NCBI RefSeq assembly: GCF_001411495.1
Contig: NZ_CP012983.1
Coordinates: forward strand, 992,001 to 1,056,000
Direction: 5' to 3'
DNA from: Burkholderia cepacia ATCC 25416
GTDB taxonomy: Bacteria > Pseudomonadota > Gammaproteobacteria > Burkholderiales > Burkholderiaceae
Length of the DNA stretch: 64,000 nucleotides
Shown: positions 38,393-39,588 of the stretch, piece by piece
Position numbering within the stretch: position 1 is the stretch's first letter
Layout: each line of letters starts with the position of its first letter
Notes under the pieces: model-generated
The model's input: only the letters and a program-made list of their open reading frames with translations
Databases searched by the model: none
What the model was told of the DNA's origin: nothing
Made by a program: the position numbers and the translations under genes

Positions 38393-38398
38393 TATACT
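38393..38398 (+). promoter_or_regulatory. Candidate -10 element of the trpS leader transcript
   Basis: TATACT is a good -10 element. Transcription would start about seven bases on, at or next to the ATG of the leader peptide (38405), so the leader peptide may be translated from a leaderless mRNA. No good -35 is seen at normal spacing. Confidence 0.45.
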
Positions 38399-38404
38399 CG
38401 CGCA

Positions 38405-38455
38405 ATGGAAACCCAACCCGCCTCGCCGAACGTGCATTGCTGGTGGCGCGCCTGA
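38405..38455 (+). CDS. trpS leader peptide with tandem Trp codons
   Basis: ATG to TGA encodes METQPASPNVHCWWRA, 16 residues, with two adjacent Trp codons (38441-38446) just before the stop. Trp is the rarest codon, and a Trp pair in a short frame directly upstream of a terminator hairpin and a tryptophanyl-tRNA synthetase gene is the hallmark of ribosome-mediated attenuation. Ribosomes would stall here when charged tRNA-Trp is scarce. No Shine-Dalgarno is visible. Confidence 0.8.
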   Translation: METQPASPNVHCWWRA

Positions 38456-38527
38456 CCCAGGCGGCCCGTTTCCTTTTGCATGTCCCAAACGTGATGCCGC
38501 CAGCCATGGCGGCATTTGCGTTTCTGC
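38418..38527 (+). promoter_or_regulatory. Tryptophan-responsive transcription attenuator of trpS
   Basis: Four segments can pair alternatively. Segment 1 CCGCCT (38418-38423) pairs with segment 2 AGGCGG (38459-38464). Segment 2 GGCGGC (38460-38465) pairs with segment 3 GCCGCC (38496-38501), extended by CGTTT (38467-38471) with AAACG (38487-38491): the antiterminator. Segment 3 (38494-38502) and segment 4 (38507-38515) form a perfect 9-bp terminator stem with a 4-base loop, followed by TTTGCGTTTCT. A ribosome stalled at the Trp codons would cover segment 1 and free segment 2, allowing read-through into trpS. Pairings were found by eye. Confidence 0.78.
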
Positions 38528-38574
38528 GCAGACGACATGGCTGGCGGCTTCGATAACCCGGAGCAACGACCAAC

Positions 38575-39588
38575 ATGACCCACCCGACCCGACCGACCAT
38601 CCTCACCGGCGACCGCACGACCGGCCCGCTGCACCTCGGCCACTACATCGGCTCGCTGCGCGCGCGCGTGCAGATGCAGCACGAAGCGAAGCAGTTCCTG
38701 CTGCTCGCCGACACGCAGGCGCTGACCGACAACATGGGCCGCCGCCAGCGCGTCACCGAGAACGTGATCGAAGTCGCGCTCGACTATCTCGCCGTCGGCA
38801 TCGATCCGGCGATCTCGACGATCGTCGTGCAGTCGCAGGTGCCCGAGCTCGCCGAGCTGTCGCAATACCTGCTCAACCTCGTCACGGTCGCGCGCCTCGA
38901 ACGCAACCCGACCATCAAGGAAGAGATCCGCCTGCGCGGTTTCGAGCGCGACATCCCGGCCGGCTTCCTGACCTACCCGGTGAGCCAGGCGGCCGACATC
39001 ACCGCGTTCAAGGCGACGCACGTGCCGGTCGGCGACGACCAGTTGCCGATGATCGAGCAGACCAACGAACTCGTGCGCCGCTTCAACGCGACGGTCGACC
39101 GGCCCGTGCTGGTCGAATGCGAGGCCGTGCTGTCGGCGGTCACGCGGCTGCCGGGGATCGACGGCAAGGCGAAGATGAGCAAGTCGCTCGGCAACGCGAT
39201 CACGCTCGGCTCGACGCCGGACGAGATCACGCAGGCCGTGAAGGACATGTACACGGACCCGAACCACCTGCGCGTGAGCGATCCCGGCCAGGTCGAGGGC
39301 AACGTCGTGTTCACGTTCCTCGATGCGTTCGAGCCCGACGTGCAGAAGGTCGACGAGTTGAAGGCGCACTACCGTCGCGGCGGGCTCGGCGACAGCGTCG
39401 TCAAGCGCGTGCTGAACGAGCGGCTGCAGGCGCTGATCGAGCCGATCCGCGCGCGCCGCCGCGAATTCGAGGCCGACAAGGCCGAGGTGATGGCGATCCT
39501 GAAGCGCGGCACGATGCACGCGCGGGACGTGGCCGGCGCGACGCTCGCGGAGGTGAAGGGGGCGATGGGGTTGAACTACTTCGATTGA
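38575..39588 (+). CDS. trpS: Tryptophanyl-tRNA synthetase, auxiliary (TrpRS II-like)
   Basis: A 337-residue class I aminoacyl-tRNA synthetase charging tRNA-Trp. The HIGH motif is HLGH in [14 protein letters not shown] and the KMSKS motif is exact ([10 protein letters not shown]). The opening [16 protein letters not shown] is like the TrpRS II type of Deinococcus and the auxiliary enzymes of Streptomyces, rather than the housekeeping SGxQPSG type; some of these resist indolmycin. It is preceded by an attenuator with a Trp-Trp leader peptide, so it is probably induced when tRNA-Trp charging falls. GGAG lies 12 bases before the ATG. A GC hairpin follows the gene. Confidence 0.95.

Follow-up and report, generated by a model that had tools for sequence, protein, structure and literature searches.

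A probable ribosome-mediated attenuator upstream of a second, TrpRS II-type tryptophanyl-tRNA synthetase gene in Burkholderia and its relatives

Why should a gene for a tryptophanyl-tRNA synthetase (TrpRS) be preceded by a very short reading frame with two adjacent Trp codons? The question is raised by a 64,000-nt stretch of Burkholderia cepacia DNA, hereafter the window, which is part of the third contig of an 8.6-Mb genome. Here, a 16-codon frame, METQPASPNVHCWWRA plus stop (38405–38455, forward strand), lies ahead of trpS (38575–39588, forward strand, 337 aa). A preliminary description of this DNA reported the frame and proposed a leader-peptide attenuator acting on trpS. The frame is indeed present, with TGG TGG as codons 13 and 14 (38441–38446, forward strand), and the proposal is supported by conserved Trp codons, by alternative stems and by the link to trpS. 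We consider it highly probable, from comparison and modelling, that the element is a ribosome-mediated attenuator of a backup TrpRS gene, with charged tRNA-Trp as the signal sensed.

The trpS product is a class I TrpRS (matches to PF00579 and TIGR00233, trpS). Its nearest solved relatives are PDB 1yi8 and 2a4m (E 1e-124; the next molecule follows at 2.5e-62), which we take to be TrpRS II chains of Deinococcus (Deinococcus radiodurans). The window enzyme is nearer to these two than to other solved TrpRS, and the TrpRS II-like nature suggested earlier is borne out. Another TrpRS is encoded on a different contig of the same genome, with 41% identity over its first part; as judged from sequence, the window gene is a second, TrpRS II-type enzyme beside the chromosomal TrpRS. 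Within a D-x-H-A-L-T stretch the window enzyme carries Gln where the chromosomal Burkholderia TrpRS, 2el7 and 2g36 carry His, a position that, from our reading of the alignment, presumably equals His43 of BsTrpRS. Gln occupies this place in 115 of the 115 TrpRS II loci long enough to read; it characterizes TrpRS II as a whole and thus does not track the leader. The replacement of His43 expected of an indolmycin-insensitive TrpRS is found at this predicted position, on sequence grounds. An H43N exchange in BsTrpRS led to indolmycin resistance (PMC4899734). Taken together, Gln at this place and the resistance of the H43N variant suggest an inhibitor of the main enzyme as a reasonable natural inducer, and the Gln would fit a gene that responds to TrpRS inhibitors.

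The surroundings hold several further genes. Just upstream of the leader lies a 51-aa frame with a membrane-like stretch (38210–38365, forward strand, ending in MAGLLYLLWPSAETAYLAMESVIR), which is kept in most B. cepacia-type loci and has no Pfam match. A tyrosinase-domain protein (PF00264) is encoded at 35650–37374 on the reverse strand and is adjoined by two frames, 34360–35124 and 35131–35562, both without a Pfam match. A Mutator-family transposase (41143–42402, reverse strand) is found near an SMI1/KNR4 (SUKH) gene at 42745–43338.

The occurrence of the leader was followed in the upstream regions of 174 homologous TrpRS II loci, a few of which represent the same genome reached twice. The family search comprised 398 genomes, 182 of them with an orthologue; 90 were read, namely 57 from Burkholderia and 33 of 125 others. 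A class-wide search of 370 genomes at E 1e-80 gave only 3 further orthologues, 0 with a leader. A Trp-bearing leader was present upstream of 141 of the 174 loci, 133 being found by an automatic rule that also required GCGGC or GGCGG close to the stop codon (133 rows, 127 distinct sequences) and 8 being accepted by eye (L062, L063, L064, L066, L070, L072, L096, L100). An accepted leader was absent from the remaining 33, L109 included. When the rule was fixed to adjacent Trp codons, 119/174 TrpRS II upstream regions were positive vs. 7/876 control ORFs in related loci; allowing one Trp gave 143/174 vs. 59/876. Dinucleotide shuffling of the upstream DNA of the window produced an adjacent-Trp frame of 10–27 codons at the same distance in 35 of 20 000 trials. 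Within Burkholderia, the TrpRS II gene was found in 58 of 65 genomes and the leader in 57 of these 58 (the exception is G014), with a single Trp in 8 of the 57.

The leaders share their dimensions and their end. Sixteen codons were counted in 99/133 and the first Trp is codon 13 in 97/133, while the last Trp is followed by two codons and a stop (108/133) or three codons and a stop (25/133). These are short leader ORFs with cognate codons near the end, as in trp-type attenuators. The forms include METQPASPNVHCWWRA in Burkholderia, MDTNPTSLKPHRWWHA in Paraburkholderia, MLFRIQLPKTQHWWRA and MNFSYPHPVLRTWWRP in records named Herbaspirillum, MNYATAFASFSWWWRLN in Chromobacterium and MNITAFNHNNWWCCS in Aeromonas, as well as the single-Trp forms MSTQLPPLSHCWRRA (divergent Burkholderia) and MIFFAPLHTRTYWRRS (Duganella). 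Conservation among relatives had been set beforehand as a check; Trp codons and alternative stems turned out to be kept well beyond Burkholderia. A leader-end pattern occurred 50 times in 49 of the 65 Burkholderia genomes, against 0 for the reversed-pattern control. All 50 lie upstream of TrpRS II genes, once (G054) upstream of a truncated tandem copy; the leader-end element is specific to TrpRS II genes in Burkholderia.

This pattern of conservation bears on two other explanations of the frame. It could belong to an ordinary small-protein gene, or encode a peptide that also acts in trans like peTrpL of Sinorhizobium, the stems being a simple intergenic terminator. A second, trans role is described for a leaderless 14-aa trpL (PMC7298713), which lends this idea some substance. 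Still, what is mainly kept in the aligned leaders is length and the Trp end, whereas the N-terminal part varies from group to group, and both alternative pairings and covariation exist (see below), so that we regard it as improbable. In the second explanation the frame is decoration and another sensor responds, be it a tRNA-binding RNA of the T-box type or a repressor that binds Trp. Most synthetase genes of Firmicutes are under T-boxes (PMC1262725); nevertheless, no Rfam family, and with it no T-box leader, reached the gathering score within the 64-kb window, and the Trp codons hold a fixed place relative to the stop codon and the stem. A sensor of that kind appears very improbable compared with the ribosome-mediated attenuator.

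Some loci depart from the common arrangement. Tandem TrpRS II genes were seen twice, once with a truncated second gene that has a leader end of its own (G054:C1:784974-785542) and once as two full-length copies in the Massilia horti genome (G818, the genome of L086; C5:55476-60234). At L064, L066, L070 and L072 the frame stays open beyond the place where a stop usually follows the Trp pair, the peptides having 23–26 residues, and segment 1 of the attenuator (see below) would therefore be translated through. The close genomes of L127 and L123 have the promoter and the last stretch ahead of trpS in common, but in L127 the part that begins with the Trp codons and extends to segment 3 has Paraburkholderia-type letters, as if its leader were a mosaic.

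Transcription of the leader probably begins at an unusual place. A −10-like box, TATACT, is located at 38393–38398 (forward strand), and a −10-like hexamer, often TATACT, precedes the ATG by 6–8 nt in 86 of 133 leaders (64.7%, vs. 2.3% in shuffled promoters); 47 of the 133 lack such a hexamer by the same rule. A consensus scan of 38200–38700 flagged no sigma-70 promoter. In 25 rows outside the main group, TTGACA was found within 40 nt upstream of the ATG and, by eye, some 17 nt ahead of a weak −10 in the usual position. From the position of the −10-like box, transcription is expected to start at the A of the leader ATG or directly beside it. This leaves no room for a Shine–Dalgarno sequence, and the leader mRNA is thus probably leaderless, with its start at or beside the ATG. 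Leaderless mRNAs have been reported in B. cenocepacia and Cupriavidus metallidurans (PMC4603805, PMC7563307); trpS is not named in the main text of either report. A different upstream arrangement was noticed at L101, L108, L110 and L111 (three Undibacterium and one Burkholderiales MAG, with one TrpRS each), in which a hairpin of the form ATGCCGC...GCGGC and a run of T come soon after a TTGACA promoter, with no leader peptide. Judged by its letters, it resembles an attenuator whose sensor has been lost.

Two alignments were used to analyse the stems. A1 holds 78 leaders of the Burkholderia/Paraburkholderia type, 75 of which were picked for the word GGCGGCC, then C or A, then G; L042, L105 and L154 were left out, L045, L048 and L155 were added, and L128 was cut at the start codon. 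A2 holds 22 leaders of the Massilia/Duganella type, with L079 left out. In the window, all on the forward strand, segment 2 is the 5′ arm of the antiterminator (GGCGGCCCGTTT, 38460–38471), segment 3 (38487–38508) is composed of AAACGTGATGCCGCC, engaged in 2:3 and 3:4, and GCCGCCAGCCATG, engaged in 3:5, and segment 4 (38508–38525) holds the 3′ arm of the terminator and the interrupted U-tract TTTGCGTTTCT. For segment 1, the preliminary description had chosen 38418–38423, paired with 38459–38464. This candidate did not stand: only 76.1% of its cells are paired in the 78 leaders, and three of its six pairs are broken in 29, 36 and 30 of 78. The conserved 1:2 hairpin (38445–38466, forward strand) instead joins the last leader codons, 38445–38447 and 38450–38454, with 38464–38466 and 38458–38462, i.e. 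the leader end with GGCGGCC. Its cells are 96.0% paired in A1. Segment 1 accordingly lies at the Trp-Arg-Ala-stop codons, not at codons 5–7.

The 2:3 pairing (38460–38471 with 38487–38501) was confirmed as proposed, with 97.3% of cells paired and 2 cells changed on both sides in A1, and 3:4 (38494–38515) reached 95.4% with 7 such cells. Compensatory changes had been suggested as a check on segments 1–4; they are thus found in 3:4 and, sparsely, in 2:3, but not in 1:2. Indeed, there is almost no variation in A1 within 1:2 or the six-pair core of 2:3, and these yield no covariation; because rows were picked by the segment 2 motif, the constancy of segment 2 is partly a matter of choice. The corresponding values in A2 are 93.6% (1:2), 98.2% (2:3) and 95.5% (3:4), again with no covariation. 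Both alignments consequently contain conserved, mutually exclusive 1:2, 2:3 and 3:4 pairings. A check independent of the stems found GCGGC or GGCGG by the stop codon and a later GCCGC or CCGCC in 107 of 119 Trp-Trp leaders, compared to 3.6% in shuffles. Chance complementarity in GC-rich DNA would be the trivial explanation, and a GC-rich genome should hold many GGCGGC and GCCGCC words. It is contradicted by shuffles, control genes and conservation alike, and we set it aside as having practically no likelihood.

The folding check that had been called for supports the hairpin: 38487–38525 folds at −22.4 kcal/mol (z −5.4; 0 of 200 shuffles were as good), and the whole leader gives z −2.67. At the proposed terminator (38494–38515) the hairpin is strong, but the U-tract TTTGCGTTTCT is interrupted. 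The 3:4 hairpin was not flagged as a terminator by the consensus scan of 38200–38700. In Burkholderia, 5 T of 8 were counted in 45/77 leaders; the U-tract is better in the Massilia group, with 7 of 8 T in 14/22.

How the ribosome may set these pairings was modelled along the order of synthesis, given that equilibrium folding of the full leader is uninformative for 2:3: with segment 4 present, mean probabilities of 2:3 were 0.00–0.01 even with a stalled ribosome. When a ribosome masked nt 1–54 and the transcript ended at segment 3, P(2:3) had a mean of 1.00 and a minimum of 0.97 over 78 leaders. Without a ribosome, the same transcripts gave P(1:2) = 0.89 and P(2:3) = 0.07. In folding, then, a stalled ribosome favours 2:3 before segment 4 appears, as required of an attenuator. 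With 2:3 near zero at equilibrium the read-through decision must be kinetic, and read-through that rests on kinetics is a feature of other attenuators as well.

Comparison and folding cover the leader, its Trp codons, the stems, the −10 spacing, the covariation of 3:5 (see below) and the tendency toward a second TrpRS, and from these we infer the following course. RNA polymerase would start at or next to the leader ATG, and a ribosome would load on the leaderless 5′ end and translate 12 codons up to the Trp pair. With Trp-tRNA plentiful, it would reach the stop codon while segments 1 and 2 are occupied or mutually paired; with these unavailable, 3:4 would form and most transcription would end. 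Once Trp-tRNA runs short, be it by Trp starvation or by inhibition of the main TrpRS, the ribosome would stall at Trp13/Trp14 and mask segment 1, so that 2 could pair with 3 and polymerase would read on into trpS. On the strength of the modelling, such a transcriptional switch is very likely.

Transcripts that leak through with 3:4 intact may meet a second obstacle. Segment 5 (CATGGCTGGCGGC, 38536–38548, forward strand) is a 13-bp complement of 38496–38508 in segment 3, and in a predicted 5:6 hairpin (38536–38577, forward strand) it would fold over the trpS ribosome-binding site, closing the Shine–Dalgarno sequence (GGAG, 38560–38563) and the start codon. The 3:5 helix is 90.6% paired in the 78 leaders of A1 with 29 cells changed on both sides, and at a score of 0.196 vs. 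0.155 for shuffles, whose counts ignore the relatedness of leaders, and ≤0.096 for slid alignments, it is the best covarying helix in A1. In the 22 leaders of A2 it is 91.8% paired with 17 such cells and scores 0.299 vs. ≤0.118 slid. Moderate support was obtained for 5:6, which is 71.3% paired in A1 (one of its helices in only 27.1%) at a score of 0.131 vs. 0.109 shuffled and ≤0.049 slid, and 83.2% paired in A2 at 0.254 vs. ≤0.210; in the window, 38534–38590 folds at −15.9 kcal/mol (z −2.5). The fold of 5:6 over the ribosome-binding site suggests a translational gate, which 3:5 pairing would probably open.

Folding of the 78 leaders predicts that going from the 3:4 to the 3:5 state makes the ribosome-binding site more accessible in 68 and less accessible in 0. 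In the 2:3 state the site is barely more open than in the 3:4 state (mean difference 0.03). Moreover, 3:4 is more stable than 3:5 in 65/78, with the reverse in 13/78, the copy in the window included. As 3:4 beats 3:5 and 2:3 barely opens the site, the second gate needs segment 3 to be handed to segment 5. From the models, we judge the chances of a translational gate via segment 5 as about even.

The same data could be read as mainly translational attenuation, in which 3:4 terminates poorly, or Rho does it, and control is exerted through 5:6 and 3:5 at the ribosome-binding site. The weak U-tract of the Burkholderia leaders and the unflagged hairpin would fit, as would the rank of 3:5 among the covarying helices and the covering of Shine–Dalgarno sequence and AUG by 5:6. 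Conversely, 3:4 too is conserved, as well as stable (z −5.4), the U-tracts of the Massilia group are better, and 2:3 alone does not open the ribosome-binding site. We hold mainly translational control to be unlikely, though not negligible. The reading we prefer, a transcriptional attenuator, can be extended to a riboregulator of six segments and two gates, driven by the leaderless Trp leader: segment 3 would decide on transcription (2:3 or 3:4) and then on translation (3:5 opens, 5:6 closes). Retained mostly for a TrpRS II that would be a backup insensitive to inhibitors, it would inform beta-proteobacteria and Aeromonas when the main TrpRS is attacked or overloaded. This full scheme is tentative, and we rate it slightly below an even chance.

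The occurrence of the leader was compared with the number of TrpRS. Among 110 genomes (one apparently counted twice), 70 have the leader and two TrpRS and 24 have no leader and one TrpRS. Eight genomes have the leader and one TrpRS found (those of L056, L070, L072, L076, L083, L088, L089 and L100; L056, L088 and L100 come from MAGs), and eight have no leader and two TrpRS. The latter, in which no Trp leader was found, are L135, L159, L169, L173, L174, L176, L078 and L092. The 11 members examined of the larger group g275, to which Cupriavidus cauae apparently belongs, gave no exceptions: the leader occurs in 6/6 genomes with two TrpRS and 0/5 with one. In Burkholderia, the other TrpRS is present in all 58 TrpRS II-bearing genomes, each of them giving 3 or 4 matches. 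In a tree built from 127 TrpRS II proteins, about 4 of 8 independent pairs changed the same way and 0.1 the opposite way, and after this correction for phylogeny the association of leader and second TrpRS was not significant (median p 0.125). The leader mostly goes with a second TrpRS. The simpler rule that the leader just follows the second TrpRS was tried and is only mostly right, in view of the 8 + 8 discordant genomes and the pair test.

If the proposed control is true, an inducible spare TrpRS exists in a large group of Gram-negative bacteria, with a control that reports charged tRNA-Trp directly. It would then become testable why two TrpRS enzymes are kept, whether natural TrpRS inhibitors shaped the two-TrpRS arrangement, and whether one RNA segment can gate both transcription and translation in an attenuator. 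The element would also provide a probable leaderless attenuator model for beta-proteobacteria.

As read from the sequences, the mechanism is a classical one with good support from comparison, and the attenuator of the E. coli trp operon represents the classical scheme (PMC7298713). The leader in the window shares with E. coli trpL the adjacent Trp codons at segment 1 and the logic of 1:2, 2:3 and 3:4. It differs in serving a synthetase instead of biosynthesis, in its probable leaderless start and in the extra segments 5 and 6. Among synthetase genes, pheST senses Phe and controls the main synthetase, not a backup, and attenuation control of the auxiliary indolmycin-resistant TrpRS of Streptomyces coelicolor has reportedly been tested. 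Leader-peptide control of a synthetase had been called uncommon in Gram-negative bacteria; uncommon it may be, but E. coli pheST, named in PMC1262725, is a precedent. The same source gives Trp-codon attenuators predicted on Streptomyces trpS, including trpS2 of S. avermitilis (PMC1262725). Like the window, these place a second TrpRS gene behind a Trp-codon leader, an antiterminator and a terminator; they belong to Actinobacteria, and a fifth segment and a leaderless start are not among the features found described in the portion of that source. At title level, the open literature yielded no description of an attenuator on a proteobacterial TrpRS II, which is weak evidence of novelty, and the main text of a broad survey of premature terminators (PMC2965389) does not contain the words tryptophan or trpS. 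The closest solved relative of the window enzyme (E 1e-124), Deinococcus radiodurans TrpRS II, is known for NO-synthase-linked Trp nitration (PMC9437257). Finally, the trpL/rnTrpL of Sinorhizobium meliloti is an RNA shown to start at the ATG of a 14-aa Trp leader (PMC7298713), similar in size to the leader in the window, for which such a start is expected. In S. meliloti rnTrpL controls trpE(G), and the terminated RNA and the peptide have roles in trans (PMC7298713), whereas the leader in the window would control a backup TrpRS.
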